This document shows positions 1-5,222 of a DNA stretch of 6,557 bases, in pieces. Position 1 is the stretch's first letter. Each line of letters begins with the position of its first letter. Source of the DNA: Candidatus Latescibacterota bacterium (GTDB lineage Bacteria; JAAXHH01; JABIQT01); the NCBI GenBank assembly GCA_018667995.1, contig JABIQT010000216.1, positions 1 to 6,557 of the forward strand. Direction: 5' to 3'. Under the pieces are notes generated by a model that searched no databases, was not told where the DNA came from, and saw only the letters and a program-made list of their open reading frames with translations. Made by a program: the position numbers and the translations under genes.

Positions 1-623
1 AATCCTGTAATGGCGCCTGCAAATACCAGAACCATGGTCGCCGTCACGAAATCCTCACGAATGAATGAGATGGCGCCGATGGTAGCTACGGCAATTAGAG
101 ACACGCCAGAGGCCAATCCATCCAGCCCATCGATGAGATTCACGGCGTTCGTAACACCAACAATCCAAAATATGGTCACCGGATAATCGAGCCATCCGAT
201 GTCAAAAGTTCCGTCGCCCAAGAGGTTAGTAACCGAGGAAATCCGGAAACCGGCGAGGTAAATCAAACTGGCTATTACAAACTGAACGAGGAATTTCTGT
301 CCTGGATTCAGTGTCTTAATGTCGTCCCAGATACCCAGCAAGAAGACCAGGCACAGGGCTCCTATAAAGACAGAAATCTTGGAAACAGAACCTGCCGCGA
401 AGTACGGCATTTCCGGACCCAGGAGGAAGAAAATCATGAACGAAAAAATCACACTCACAAAAATTGCCATTCCCCCGAGTCGGGGCATGGGGCGGCTGTG
501 GACCTTTCTAGGATCCGGGAGATCCACCGCACCTATGTGAGGTGCCAACCAGATCACAAACGGCGTGACCAGTAGGGACAACACAAGAGGGAGAAAGAAG
601 CTGAGTGCAAATTGATAAACCAT
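1..623 (-). CDS. WecA/TagO-type undecaprenyl-phosphate sugar-1-phosphate transferase, 3' end cut off by the window
   Basis: This gene was read by translating the reverse complement from an ATG at 623. It gives 207 codons and is still open at the window edge, against about 330-370 residues for the family. It belongs to the MraY/WecA/TagO family of integral inner-membrane enzymes that transfer a sugar-1-phosphate from a UDP-sugar to undecaprenyl phosphate, the first step of lipid-linked polysaccharide assembly. Visible signatures are HSRPMPRLGG at residues 42-51, the WDD pair at 99-101 followed by PGQK (107-110), and NAVNLIDGLDGLA at 159-171 with Asp165 and Asp168. Hydrophobic helices lie near 5-28, 53-70, 82-98, 112-125 and 148-160. 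The missing C-terminal part would hold the His-rich cytoplasmic loop that helps separate WecA from TagO or MraY, so the sugar cannot be named. WecA-like is favoured over MraY because of the export-gene context. The start is supported by AAAGGA about 11 bases upstream, overlapping the stop of the export gene. Confidence 0.93.
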   Translation of the reverse strand, partial: MVYQFALSFFLPLVLSLLVTPFVIWLAPHIGAVDLPDPRKVHSRPMPRLGGMAIFVSVIFSFMIFFLLGPEMPYFAAGSVSKISVFIGALCLVFLLGIWDDIKTLNPGQKFLVQFVIASLIYLAGFRISSVTNLLGDGTFDIGWLDYPVTIFWIVGVTNAVNLIDGLDGLASGVSLIAVATIGAISFIREDFVTATMVLVFAGAITG

Positions 624-634
624 CGGCTGTCGGT

Positions 635-641
635 TCCTTTA
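635..641 (-). promoter_or_regulatory. Ribosome binding site of the WecA-like gene, overlapping the upstream stop codon
   Basis: On the minus strand the sequence TAAAGGA contains both the TAA stop of the export-protein gene (639-641) and an AAAGGA Shine-Dalgarno element placed about 11 bases before the ATG at 623. Stop and ribosome binding site share bases, and only 15 bp separate the two genes. They are therefore very probably transcribed together and may be translationally coupled. Confidence 0.6.
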
Positions 642-1736
642 GCGGAAACTGAATATCAAGAAGAGTCCGGTTGCGGAGGTTATGGCGGCGGAAAAAATAG
701 TCAGAAAGTTCCGAACTGTATGTTTCTTGCGTGGAATGAACACGGTTTCACCAGGCTGGACGATCGGCATCACCAGTCCGTTGCGCATGGTCTGATCGAG
801 ATTGACTTCGATAGATCCACGGGTGGGGCTCATGATGGTGATCCTCTGAAGGTCAGATTCTGGGGTCGTTCCCCCCGCCAGGGACAGCAGTTCAAACAAT
901 GGCAGCTCCGAGCCGACCTGGTAATTATCCTGTCGCGCTATTTCACCCAGCACCGTTATAGTGGTCTGACTGGCTCCCGCCGTAAGGACAGTGGAACCCG
1001 CACCTTGATTTGCCGCGCCCTGCGCCTGCCGGCGCCCGATGCCGGTTAAGGTACTCGGGTCTGGCTTGCCGGGCGTGACCACCGTCGTCAGTCGAATGTC
1101 GCCCTTCACGTACTCAGATAGACGTTGCTTGACTGCAGCCTCCAACTGAGCCTCGGCAAGCCCTCGAGCCCGAACCTCTCCGATGAGCGGCACATCAATT
1201 GTTCCTCCAAGCGATACAATCGAATCCGTATTGAACTCGTCGTATCCCCAGACCTTGATGTTGATCTTATCATTGGTCTGTATGACATAGGCGTTAGCAG
1301 GTACCTGTGGAGGCGTATATGTCGGGTTGGCAGGGATTGGTGCTTTAGTCGTCACAGGCTGGACCACACGTTCCGGCACCTCCCGTTCCGGCAGCCTCGC
1401 AGCGCGCTTGACGGTTGACGGCGTGACGGTGGTAATGAGCTGTATGTTTCCCTTAATGTAATCCGAAAGCTTATCCTTTAGCTGACTCTGGAGCTGCATC
1501 TCGGTCAAGCCCGCTATCTGAAGATCGCCTACGAGCGGGACAAGTATGGTACCGTCCGGTGATACGATTCCATCGGTATTGAATTCAGAGTAACCGACCA
1601 CTTCAATCTGCACGGCATCGCCAGGACTGATGGCGATGCTCTGGAGTCGTCCCGTGGCGGCGGCCGATAGACCGGCGGTCCCTGGGATACCCACTAACAG
1701 CATCACTATACAGGCGAAGTGTCTTACGCTCATCAT
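639..1736 (-). CDS. Wza-like outer-membrane polysaccharide export protein (OPX) with two tandem export domains
   Basis: This is a periplasmic/outer-membrane polysaccharide export protein of 365 residues from the ATG at 1736. A hydrophobic signal peptide (about residues 5-28, ending SAAA) shows no lipobox cysteine, so it does not look like the lipoprotein form of Wza. Two poly_export (PES) domains follow at about 36-107 and 152-223. They are homologous to each other and joined by a proline-rich linker (about 108-150). An SLBB-like domain comes next at about 258-337 (TVLGEIARQDNYQVG, then PGETVFIPRK). A hydrophobic C-terminal segment (about 344-362) could be the outer-membrane helix used by Wza. 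Family members normally carry a single PES domain. A GTG at 1745 also opens this frame, but it lies inside AAAGGGTGG, the only good Shine-Dalgarno sequence, which is ideally spaced for ATG 1736. A further ATG follows at 1733. The gene is followed closely by the WecA-like gene. Confidence 0.92.
   Translation of the reverse strand: MMSVRHFACIVMLLVGIPGTAGLSAAATGRLQSIAISPGDAVQIEVVGYSEFNTDGIVSPDGTILVPLVGDLQIAGLTEMQLQSQLKDKLSDYIKGNIQLITTVTPSTVKRAARLPEREVPERVVQPVTTKAPIPANPTYTPPQVPANAYVIQTNDKINIKVWGYDEFNTDSIVSLGGTIDVPLIGEVRARGLAEAQLEAAVKQRLSEYVKGDIRLTTVVTPGKPDPSTLTGIGRRQAQGAANQGAGSTVLTAGASQTTITVLGEIARQDNYQVGSELPLFELLSLAGGTTPESDLQRITIMSPTRGSIEVNLDQTMRNGLVMPIVQPGETVFIPRKKHTVRNFLTIFSAAITSATGLFLIFSFR
1068..1283 (-). 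repeat. Second copy of the duplicated PES (poly_export) domain within the export protein
   Basis: This stretch encodes 72 residues that align without gaps to the domain encoded at 1416-1631. By hand count 38 of 72 positions are identical. Shared blocks include GY-EFNTD, IVS, GTI-VPL and the YxKGxIxL region. This copy starts IQTNDKINIKVWGYDEF and ends VVTPG. The duplication is at the protein level; the DNA copies have diverged considerably. Confidence 0.85.
1416..1631 (-). repeat. First copy of the duplicated PES (poly_export) domain within the export protein
   Basis: This copy encodes ISPGDAVQIEVVGYSEF through TVTPS, directly after the signal peptide. The opening ISPGD matches the usual PES start (Y-x-[IL]-G-[PA]-G-D) better than the IQTND of the second copy, so this is probably the canonical domain and the other its diverged duplicate. 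Confidence 0.85.
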
Positions 1737-1741
1737 CGTTG

Positions 1742-1750
1742 CCACCCTTT
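1742..1750 (-). promoter_or_regulatory. Ribosome binding site that decides the start of the export gene
   Basis: The minus strand reads AAAGGGTGG here. AAAGG ends 9 bases before the ATG at 1736. The upstream GTG at 1745 is part of this element, so initiation there would leave no ribosome binding site. This supports ATG 1736, or ATG 1733 directly after it. Confidence 0.55.
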
Positions 1751-2239: not shown

Positions 2240-3598
2240 ATGCTTATGTATGCTGCCCATGTAAAACTGACCGAGATAATCAGTATTATAAAACGTAGGA
2301 AGCGCCTGTTGATCATTCCACCGATTCTCGTGACGATCATCTGCTCTATAGCTGCATTCGCGCTTCCTCGTAAGTATGAGGCCTGGACCACTATACTCAT
2401 CCGGAAGGATGACGTGTTGAATCCATTGGTTAAGATTGACATGGCCGTGTCTATGGTTAGCGATGACAGGATCCGGTCTTTTGGCGATATCGTCTATAGT
2501 ACCAGTACGGTTCAGGCGGTAGTGGACAGCCTCAGACTGGACGCAGGAATGACCACGGAGTCAGAGAGGCAATATCAGCTGAATACCTTGAAAGGACGGA
2601 TCGGTTACGCTAACCTCAACGAATCCACTGTCAGGATTATTGTTGAAGGTGACGATCCCGTTTTCGTGCAGCAGGCCACGGGTATCATATCCCGCAAGGC
2701 CATTAGAACTATGATACAGGTGGAGAACCAGAAGAACGAGATGACGGTGCGCTTCTTTCAGGAGAAACTTCAGGAGTACCAGGAGAAGTTCGAGATTAGC
2801 CGACAGGCTATCCTGCCTGTGCTCCAGGAACGCATTGCGGAGATGCCGGCAGGTCAAGGTTCGCTCGTAGCTGAAATCAATCAAATCTCAAATCAACGCC
2901 AGGAGATAGAGGCTAAGGTAGAAGATTACCGACAGGCCCTCACGATGCTGGGACAGTTTCCGGAAGCACTTCGAACGGAAAGTGGACAGCGGTCCCTCTC
3001 ATCGTTACAGAGATACGACCTTCCATTTTCCAGCGATCTCAAGCCTCTGATCACTCGCTACGCAGACATGTCACGCCGCTACACCAACAACTACCCTGGC
3101 ATGGTCGATCTCGAATCGCAGATCCTGGAGATGCTCAATAATATGAAGGATGTTCTGTCCTACGAGATACCGGAACAGACGAGCCTGCTCACGGATCTTA
3201 ACAGGGAGCATGGTCGGCTTGTTGCCTCGCTGCAACAATCATCGGTCGTGAAGCGAATGGACCACGAGAAGGAATCCTCATACGATATTTACCGGCGTCT
3301 GTATGACGATATGAAGGTGAAACTTGAGCAGGCGAGAACCAACCGCGAATTACGCAAGATGGGTGAGGAACAGTTCGTGGTAATCGATCCCCCTGTCGTG
3401 CCCACCAGACCGACCAAACCCAACCGAGCCATGGTAATCATGGCTGGCATGATTTTCGGCATGGTCCTTGGAGGCGTTGCCGTAGTGCTGTCAGAACTAT
3501 TCGACACTACAATAAACTCACCCGATGATCTGAAGATATACAAAGCGCCGGTCGTGGCCCTTATCCCTGCGCGTACATCTGAAAATCGCAGCAATTAA
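2240..3598 (+). CDS. Wzz-type polysaccharide copolymerase / chain-length determinant protein
   Basis: This 452-residue inner-membrane protein sets chain length and couples Wzy-dependent polymerisation to export. Its architecture is typical of the Wzz/Wzc/GumC membrane part: a basic N-terminus, transmembrane helix 1 (about 23-42), and a periplasmic Wzz domain starting RKYEAWTTILIRK (44-56). A long helical, probably coiled-coil region runs from about 155 to 370 and includes a GNVR-like Y-x-x-x-YPGMVDLESQI segment (281-295). The proline-rich stretch IDPPVVPTRPTKPNR (382-396) precedes transmembrane helix 2 (about 397-418). A short cytoplasmic tail, DTTINSPDDLKIYKAPVVALIP, ends the protein. It carries no kinase domain; that is encoded by the next gene, as in split CapA/CapB-like pairs. 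GGAG lies 4 bases before this ATG and 10 before an in-frame ATG at 2246, so either start is possible. The frame continues after the TAA for 19 sense codons to a TGA at 3656-3658. Confidence 0.9.
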   Translation: MLMYAAHVKLTEIISIIKRRKRLLIIPPILVTIICSIAAFALPRKYEAWTTILIRKDDVLNPLVKIDMAVSMVSDDRIRSFGDIVYSTSTVQAVVDSLRLDAGMTTESERQYQLNTLKGRIGYANLNESTVRIIVEGDDPVFVQQATGIISRKAIRTMIQVENQKNEMTVRFFQEKLQEYQEKFEISRQAILPVLQERIAEMPAGQGSLVAEINQISNQRQEIEAKVEDYRQALTMLGQFPEALRTESGQRSLSSLQRYDLPFSSDLKPLITRYADMSRRYTNNYPGMVDLESQILEMLNNMKDVLSYEIPEQTSLLTDLNREHGRLVASLQQSSVVKRMDHEKESSYDIYRRLYDDMKVKLEQARTNRELRKMGEEQFVVIDPPVVPTRPTKPNRAMVIMAGMIFGMVLGGVAVVLSELFDTTINSPDDLKIYKAPVVALIPARTSENRSN

Positions 3599-3661: not shown

Positions 3662-5026
3662 ATGGCAACGCAACAGAACAACCAACTGACGATGCGCATT
3701 CCCACAAAGCATATCGTAGTAGTGGCTACACTGCTGATCGTAGTGTACATCCTGCAGTCTATGATATTGCACGTCTATAGCGACAATCTGGACTCCTTCG
3801 ACTGGTTCTTCGAAGGACTGCAACCGCTGATCTCATTCGGTCTCTGGGCGGTCCTGTCTCCGGTCTTGTACCGGTATTTCGTACACTTCTATCCGCCCGC
3901 ACAGGAATCGACTGCGGGCAAGCTGCGTGCCCTTCAGAACGGCATCCTTGTCGCCGGTGTTCACCGGTTGCTGTCTATGATCTTCTTCTGGCTGTCGCTG
4001 TATTTTTTCACTGATGCCTATGTATATGAGGCCTATTTCGACCAGGCGCTCCAGCTCTTCGGAACCGGCTTGATCGAGAGTATTCTGGTTTTTGCCATTA
4101 TCGTGGTCATCATCACCGCCTATAACGCCTATCAGGAAAAGCAAATTGAACTCTTTGATATGCAGAGGGAACGCTCCCAAGATGTGATGAGCGAGGAGGA
4201 TGCCCCCTGGAATCGTGATGACCGTGAGAAGGACCGTGGGTTCCAAGGCACATCTGGTTTTGCCGGCAGCCATCTACTCGGCGGACCCGCCGCACCTCGA
4301 AACGCACTCGTACAATCGATGGGTGCGGCACCCATTCTTCTGAATCCTCGTCGGGGAATGTACGTGGATCAGAACGTCGTGGCGCCTCAGTTCTTTGATA
4401 AATTTCATTCGCTTCTGTCTGAAGAACAACGCGAGAATGGACTGACTGTCGGAGTAATCAGTCCCAATCCCAAAGAGGGTAAGACACTCGTGGCCTCCAA
4501 CCTGGCTGTCTCTCTCGCGCTGGGATACCAGAAGAAGACCATCCTGATGGATTTCAACGTCAGACAACCCGCACTCCATCATATCTTTGATGTGGCGTTG
4601 AGCCCCGGCCTGGTAGAGGCCGTGGATGAATCGCTGGGTAAGCGAATCCATGTATCGTCGACGCCTATCAAGGGACTCTTCGTTTTGACGGCCGGAGGCG
4701 TTGAGAAGGGGTCATCGGAGCGAGCCCAGATCGATAGTGAGCGTTCAGACTACGTAACCGATGAAGAGGACGGACAACCAGTCATCACGCTCGAGCAGTC
4801 CTCCGCCTTTTTCGAAGTGATAGACGCGCTTGAACGCGAATTCGATTGCATTGTAATTGACATGCCCTCGGCGAACAGAGGCGAATTTCCCGCTCTCCTG
4901 TCGACCCGGTTGGATAAGTTCCTTGCGGTGGTAGACACTACAAAAACCAAACATAGGGATATTGAACAGATGATGACCCACGTCAACGAAGAACAGTTGA
5001 TGGGATTTGTCATGAACCAGGCCTGA
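3662..5026 (+). CDS. BY-kinase-like P-loop ATPase fused to an N-terminal four-helix membrane domain resembling LytS/YehU sensors
   Basis: The protein has 454 residues. Residues 1-160 hold four likely membrane helices (about 17-37, 53-73, 93-117, 132-154), then a charged segment (157-175) and a flexible linker to about 238. The layout and wording (FDWFFEGLQPLISFGLWAVLS, then a final helix running into AYNAYQEKQIELFDMQRE) resemble the membrane input domain of LytS/YehU-type histidine kinases; this is an inference from pattern memory. Residues 240-454 form a CpsD/CapB/Wzc-like ATPase: Walker A SPNPKEGKT (267-275), A' region TILMDFNVRQP (293-303, Asp297) and Walker B DCIVIDMPS (395-403, Asp400). 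Departures from tyrosine kinases are DFN where DxD is usual, an acidic insert (about 348-376) in place of the usual NPxELL segment, and no C-terminal tyrosine cluster (it ends GFVMNQA). It probably partners the Wzz-type protein, as an ATPase rather than a proven kinase. The ribosome binding site is weak (GGGAAAG, 8 bases upstream). Confidence 0.85.
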   Translation: MATQQNNQLTMRIPTKHIVVVATLLIVVYILQSMILHVYSDNLDSFDWFFEGLQPLISFGLWAVLSPVLYRYFVHFYPPAQESTAGKLRALQNGILVAGVHRLLSMIFFWLSLYFFTDAYVYEAYFDQALQLFGTGLIESILVFAIIVVIITAYNAYQEKQIELFDMQRERSQDVMSEEDAPWNRDDREKDRGFQGTSGFAGSHLLGGPAAPRNALVQSMGAAPILLNPRRGMYVDQNVVAPQFFDKFHSLLSEEQRENGLTVGVISPNPKEGKTLVASNLAVSLALGYQKKTILMDFNVRQPALHHIFDVALSPGLVEAVDESLGKRIHVSSTPIKGLFVLTAGGVEKGSSERAQIDSERSDYVTDEEDGQPVITLEQSSAFFEVIDALEREFDCIVIDMPSANRGEFPALLSTRLDKFLAVVDTTKTKHRDIEQMMTHVNEEQLMGFVMNQA

Positions 5027-5054: not shown

Positions 5055-5222
5055 ATGTCTGCACTGGCAGCTGTTCTTGGATTATTGATCATGTCAATGT
5101 GGTTCGGCAAACGCATGCAAAGAGTCACGTTCGGAACCTATACATTGACAGCCGTCCTTGCGGTCCTTCAAGTCGCCGTGATTCTCATATACATGTTCAC
5201 CGTAGAAGCACCGGAATTCTAA
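5055..5222 (+). CDS. Small two-helix membrane protein of unknown function (55 residues)
   Basis: An open frame begins MSALAAVLGLLIMSMWFGKR and ends with TAA at 5220-5222. It has two hydrophobic segments, about residues 2-17 and 31-50. A basic turn between them (GKRMQR, 18-23) suggests a hairpin with both ends outside and the loop in the cytoplasm, and the C-terminus is short and acidic (VEAPEF). I do not recognise a family. It fits tightly between the ATPase gene (28 bp upstream) and the polymerase gene (15 bp downstream) in the same direction, and only this frame gives a coherent membrane protein. The longer overlapping frame in this interval encodes a basic, low-complexity product. The Shine-Dalgarno site is weak (GAGAG, 9 bases before the ATG). 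A role as an accessory subunit of the polymerase or copolymerase is only an inference from position. Confidence 0.65.
   Translation: MSALAAVLGLLIMSMWFGKRMQRVTFGTYTLTAVLAVLQVAVILIYMFTVEAPEF

Follow-up and report, generated by a model that had tools for sequence, protein, structure and literature searches.

A four-helix membrane domain fused to a BY-kinase-fold ATPase in a predicted exopolysaccharide locus of Latescibacterota

Introduction

Bipartite PCP-2 systems in which the partner protein is a BY pseudokinase have been described in Myxococcus xanthus (EcpK/EpsV) and in Caulobacter (HfsB/HfsA), and the arrangement is experimentally supported (PMC12004946). CapA, EpsV and Wzc each have a cytoplasmic C-terminal PCP segment that packs against the kinase domain (PMC12004946). 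In the kinases themselves, EX2RX2R and the tyrosine-rich tail matter both for trans-autophosphorylation and for octamer formation (PMC3795738, PMC8285477). Among the PF06580 histidine kinases, the first 150 residues of AlgZ/FimS are predicted to form four helices (PMC4064291), and YehU/BtsS has seven (PMC10653868).

Here we describe P0001, a protein encoded by a Latescibacterota bacterium that can be compared with each of these systems. Like EcpK and HfsB, it appears to stand alone as the BY-kinase-fold partner of a PCP-2 that lacks a kinase domain, with changed catalytic motifs and no tyrosine tail; EcpK, however, is soluble and without any Walker motif, whereas P0001 has both Walker A and Walker B as well as four predicted membrane helices. 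With CapB/CpsD (PCP-2b) and Wzc (PCP-2a) it shares the fold, Walker A and B and the link to a PCP, but it lacks their D-x-D motif, EX2RX2R motif and tyrosine tail; its membrane helices do not form a Wzz domain, and CapB/CpsD are without any membrane part. With AlgZ/FimS-like PF06580 kinases it shares four N-terminal helices, the motif LWA.L.P in the second of them and a last helix that runs into the cytoplasm, but it is without a His-kinase or HATPase domain and its output is an ATPase. LytS/YehU (BtsS) are PF06580 kinases too, but their membrane input is the 5TMR_LYT domain, which belongs to a different family from the domain of P0001.

Results

A predicted Wzx/Wzy-type exopolysaccharide locus

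The window analysed here is a complete 6.6-kb contig (C578; 6,557 nucleotides) of a draft metagenome assembly of 6.06 Mb (1165 contigs, 85% complete). To judge by its predicted products, it is a Wzx/Wzy-type exopolysaccharide locus:

3..623, minus strand: WecA-type sugar-1-P transferase (PF00953, 9e-26); incomplete, leaves the contig
639..1745, minus strand: OPX protein, outer-membrane polysaccharide export (PF02563, 1.7e-32; PF10531)
2240..3598, plus strand: P0002, Wzz/GNVR PCP without a kinase domain (PF02706, 1.1e-6; PF13807, 2.2e-8; over cut-off)
3494..3595, plus strand: cytoplasmic C-terminal tail of P0002, residues 419-452 (ELFDTTINSPDDLKIYKAPVVALIP), similar in sequence to the corresponding part of the genome's own Wzc
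3662..5026, plus strand: P0001, fused ATPase, 454 aa; single ORF, BY-kinase-like by TIGR03018, PDB sequence matches and fold
5055..5222, plus strand: hydrophobic small protein of 55 aa with two apparent membrane segments; homologues in L050, L051 and L052
5238..6557, plus strand: Wzy-type polymerase (PF04932, 3.6e-9, over cut-off); incomplete, leaves the contig

A sequence-only reading of this DNA had taken the Wzz-type protein to be a gene separate from the ATPase, and the PCP at 2240-3598, with PF13807 and PF02706 over their cut-offs, bears this out. The separation had also been presented as a departure from classical BY-kinases; because stand-alone partners without kinase motifs, EcpK and HfsB, have already been described (PMC12004946), it is not new in itself. 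P0001 thus stands alone beside a kinase-less PCP, and P0002 ends about 34 residues past its second membrane helix. By analogy with CapA and EpsV, this tail would be the segment that contacts the partner.

When the locus was examined as a candidate XrtA/PEP-CTERM system, the matches to TIGR03018, TIGR03007 and TIGR03027 were all below their cut-offs, and the 85%-complete genome gave no match to the exosortase family PF09721. An Rfam scan of the window returned no match. The OPX protein (639-1745, minus strand) contains two Poly_export-type segments in tandem, seen as two PF02563 stretches; judged by eye, the OPX proteins of L050 and L052 apparently have one.

The small protein belongs to a family of hydrophobic proteins of 55-60 residues with the motif GK[RQ], whose genes separate those of the ATPase and the Wzy polymerase (L050:4784-4957, L051:4668-4844, L052:4694-4873), a synteny kept in Latescibacterota and Ignavibacteria. 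No Pfam family matches it significantly, and it may be a so far undescribed component of the Wzy/PCP machine.

One uninterrupted frame joins membrane helices to an ATPase

P0001 is a single uninterrupted 454-residue frame (3662-5026, plus strand). An AlphaFold2 model, computed from an input alignment with 13 relatives, places helices at residues 15-38, 47-76, 84-117 and 123-176, followed by a confidently predicted C-terminal Rossmann ATPase domain, so that the fusion of a membrane domain to an ATPase proposed from the sequence stands. The parts and motifs of the protein are as follows:

3704..4189, plus strand: four-helix membrane domain, residues 15-176 (AlphaFold2 helices; match to the PF06580 kinase L101; HMM and shuffle tests)
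4184..4321, plus strand: disordered linker, residues 175-220 (pLDDT below 50)
4367..5023, plus strand: BY-kinase-fold ATPase domain, residues 236-454 (AlphaFold2 fold, structure comparison, motifs)
4460..4486, plus strand: Walker A, SPNPKEGKT, residues 267-275; conserved in alignment A2
4541..4564, plus strand: Walker A' variant, ILMDFNVR, residues 294-301; D-x-N instead of D-x-D
4847..4870, plus strand: Walker B, CIVIDMPS, residues 396-403; conserved in the alignment

In the model, the last membrane helix, like its counterpart in PF06580 kinases, projects into the cytoplasm, by about 20 residues. The charges outside the helices alternate, the loops at 1-16 and 76-91 being positive and those at 39-53 and 118-132 acidic; this pattern fits an N-in/C-in topology and hence a cytoplasmic ATPase.

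The fusion is known from one contig of one draft metagenome assembly, and two genes might have been misjoined during assembly or binning; a single instance on a 6.6-kb contig of a genome in 1165 pieces would be compatible with such an artefact. However, the fusion is in frame, codon usage and GC3 are continuous between the two halves of P0001, and the gene order PCP - ATPase - small protein - Wzy is the same in the window and in L050. An artefact could therefore have arisen only if sequence had been inserted in frame at the gene's 5' end. With uniform codon usage, and with the PCP upstream and the ATPase downstream as in the syntenic relatives, we regard an assembly chimera as very improbable.

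The ATPase has a BY-kinase fold and has lost the autokinase motifs

The BY-kinase-type ATPase recognized in the sequence is supported by comparison of the predicted structure. The closest fold was that of CapA1B1 (VIA-align Z 23.0 for the AlphaFold2 model, 188 residues, 2.3 Å), with the kinase domains of CapAB, VpsO and Wzc at Z 21-22 and the CapB/CpsD and Wzc group as a whole at Z 20-23, and Foldseek agrees with VIA-align on the assignment. An alternative identity as a MinD/ParA protein was rejected, the best MinD reaching Z 16.8 versus 23.0 for CapA1B1. By sequence, the best NCBIfam profile for P0001 was TIGR03018 (XrtA-associated autokinase; 5e-22, below cut-off).

Walker A and Walker B are intact. 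At Walker A', P0001 reads D-F-N, and its three closest relatives (L050, L051 and L052) read D-L-N. Other stand-alone relatives have D-x-D, as does the genome's own Wzc, with the exception of L066 (E-x-N), in which the second aspartate is gone too, outside the P0001 clade. The EX2RX2R motif is absent before Walker A: the corresponding place reads APQFFDKF, with no arginine at the expected sites. The last 40 residues contain no tyrosine, versus 12 in the genome's own Wzc (L002), which has EAYRNIRT at EX2RX2R and DTDLRRP at Walker A'. The losses of D-x-D, EX2RX2R and tyrosine tail are the same in P0001 and its three closest relatives.

Because the Walker A' aspartate is changed to asparagine and both EX2RX2R and the tyrosine tail are missing, P0001 is probably not a tyrosine autokinase. 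Related to the bacterial tyrosine kinases but seemingly inactive, it is nearer to the EcpK/HfsB pseudokinases than to an active kinase, since its closest three relatives have the same motif losses. As Walker A and B are kept, unlike in EcpK, P0001 may still hydrolyse ATP or retain weak kinase activity. An active BY-kinase that tolerates D-x-N and finds its substrate tyrosines elsewhere, in the PCP, in Wzy or in the four-helix domain, would agree with these intact motifs and with an autokinase profile as best match; with the second Walker A' aspartate, EX2RX2R and the tyrosine tail missing alike in P0001, L050, L051 and L052, we consider it decidedly unlikely.

The canonical Wzc-type BY-kinase (PCP-2a) lies on a second contig of the same genome (C563; L002:1-1167). 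Its D-x-D, EX2RX2R and tyrosine-rich tail indicate, at the level of motifs, that pseudokinase-like and canonical BY-kinase systems coexist in one genome.

The membrane domain resembles the N-termini of PF06580 histidine kinases

Scans of Pfam, NCBIfam and PHROG, with the N-terminus or the whole protein, assigned residues 1-177 to no family. A Foldseek search of the PDB with a single-sequence model of the N-terminus, which is of low confidence (pLDDT 69-70), gave no match, and thus no known PCP or adaptor fold was found for it.

For comparison, N-termini of PF06580 histidine kinases were collected, and an HMM was built from 20 of them that carry WA..TP near the end of helix 2, the seeds being picked by eye for this motif and P0001 being left out of the build. 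The P0001 N-terminus scored 12.6 bits, a value that none of the 4937 full shuffles scored reached and that 2 of 5000 topology-preserving shuffles (helices and loops kept apart) did. Specificity fell when a broader HMM was made from all the kinase N-termini: 73 of 5000 topology-preserving shuffles then reached the score. Among 1446 ORFs from fetched loci, the P0001 N-terminus was the top non-kinase sequence (E 0.006; E 0.0014 once L101 was added to the HMM), and hhalign gave the kinship a probability of 37-77%.

Used as a single query against 393 genomes, the P0001 N-terminus found L101 as its best match (E 2.3e-4 per genome, about 0.09 overall; 30% identity over 117 residues). L101 is the N-terminus of a PF06580 kinase that adjoins a LytTR regulator, and it matches other kinase N-termini with E down to 3e-10. 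Further matches in these genomes (L102-L104) were set aside, being weaker than L101 and not kinases. The 16 genomes of the order gave chance matches only (L017-L019), and no donor emerged from the same genome, since the PF06580 kinases encoded within the order (L020-L022) have a membrane part that is longer and different.

The four helices are thus likely akin to the N-termini of PF06580 histidine kinases, although the scores are modest. The LytS/YehU-like domain of the sequence-only reading holds in part: the likeness to PF06580 kinase N-termini is above chance in several tests, but the domain is not 5TMR_LYT, as PF07694 had no match in Pfam scans of the whole protein or of the N-terminus alone and BtsS has seven helices (PMC10653868). 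The subtype would instead be the four-helix, AlgZ/FimS-like one, with AlgZ compared by its published description only. Alternatively, the four helices could be an unrelated anchor whose likeness to the kinases is due to chance, a view compatible with a scaffold ATPase; it would agree with the modest scores and with the empty results in Pfam, NCBIfam and the PDB. The shuffle and ORF controls speak against it, as does an unselected best match in 393 genomes that turned out to be a PF06580 kinase, and we find it quite unlikely.

Syntenic relatives do without the membrane domain

The closest relatives of P0001, L050 from Latescibacterota and L051 and L052 from Ignavibacteria, are syntenic and have no membrane domain. 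An alignment of P0001 and L004 was used to scan the genomes of 84,980 species, by a method that relies on short conserved ATPase peptides and favours close relatives. Of the 19 relatives that it yielded, not one had a comparable membrane domain attached to its ATPase; the longer ones were PCP-2a proteins. Neither 16 genomes of the phylum nor a broader set of 384 yielded a second fusion. When 364 genomes were surveyed with TIGR01007, none of the matches listed was a BY-kinase frame 389-531 aa long, and the seven intermediate cases were PCP-2a proteins or had soluble extensions. Two stand-alone BY-kinases (L116 and L117; 342-351 aa) have about 120 additional, soluble residues at the N-terminus.

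Each half of P0001 is of a known kind, and their combination was found neither in a second searched genome nor in the open papers searched; the architecture did not prove to be common. Because L050-L052 do without it, the membrane domain appears to be an add-on and not part of the core function.

Discussion

According to our preferred model, P0001 and the kinase-less PCP P0002, products of one operon, would act together in a Wzx/Wzy exopolysaccharide machine, with P0001 as the separate, BY-kinase-like partner. The predicted ATPase domain would sit under the PCP ring and bind the cytoplasmic C-terminal tail of the PCP, like EcpK, HfsB and CapB, and would work mainly through ATP-dependent binding and scaffolding and not through tyrosine autophosphorylation. 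In this way it would help the PCP/Wzy machine to assemble and disassemble without tyrosine phosphorylation, while the four helices would anchor it in the inner membrane beside the PCP and Wzy, raise its local concentration and perhaps also dimerise it; a signal sensed by them would be a possible, secondary modulator. We judge a membrane-anchored scaffold ATPase of this kind to be slightly favoured on balance, and the same judgement covers the gain of the N-terminal four-helix domain by P0001 in this lineage, which forms part of it.

The linker bears on what the helices do. With pLDDT below 50 at residues 175-220, a tether is favoured, and about 45 residues of low confidence make tethering at least as likely as control by a signal. 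The sequence-only reading had suggested that a membrane signal could control polymerisation with no two-component relay. A true sensor of this sort, in which a ligand or the state of the membrane would change the four-helix bundle and act through its last helix on the ATPase, would suit the kinship with histidine-kinase input domains and the last membrane helix, which carries on past the membrane for about 20 residues as it does in such kinases. However, the disordered stretch between helix and ATPase makes rigid transmission in the manner of a histidine kinase less likely, the relatives function without the domain, and the sensor function of the four-helix domain of AlgZ is itself given as unknown (PMC4064291). 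We consider a sensor of this kind rather doubtful, and allosteric or ligand-dependent oligomerisation of the four helices possible. A shade less probable still is the fuller proposal that a histidine-kinase input domain has moved onto a PCP partner, where a membrane signal would switch exopolysaccharide assembly with neither a phosphorelay nor tyrosine phosphorylation.

EcpK and HfsB raise the question of how PCP-2 machines cycle without tyrosine phosphorylation. Read as a scaffold ATPase, P0001 would be a natural variant, a membrane-anchored partner in an otherwise soluble clade, and would offer a clean comparison for the effect of membrane proximity or sensing. P0001 further suggests that the input domain of a histidine kinase may be recruited to outputs that are neither kinases nor regulators.
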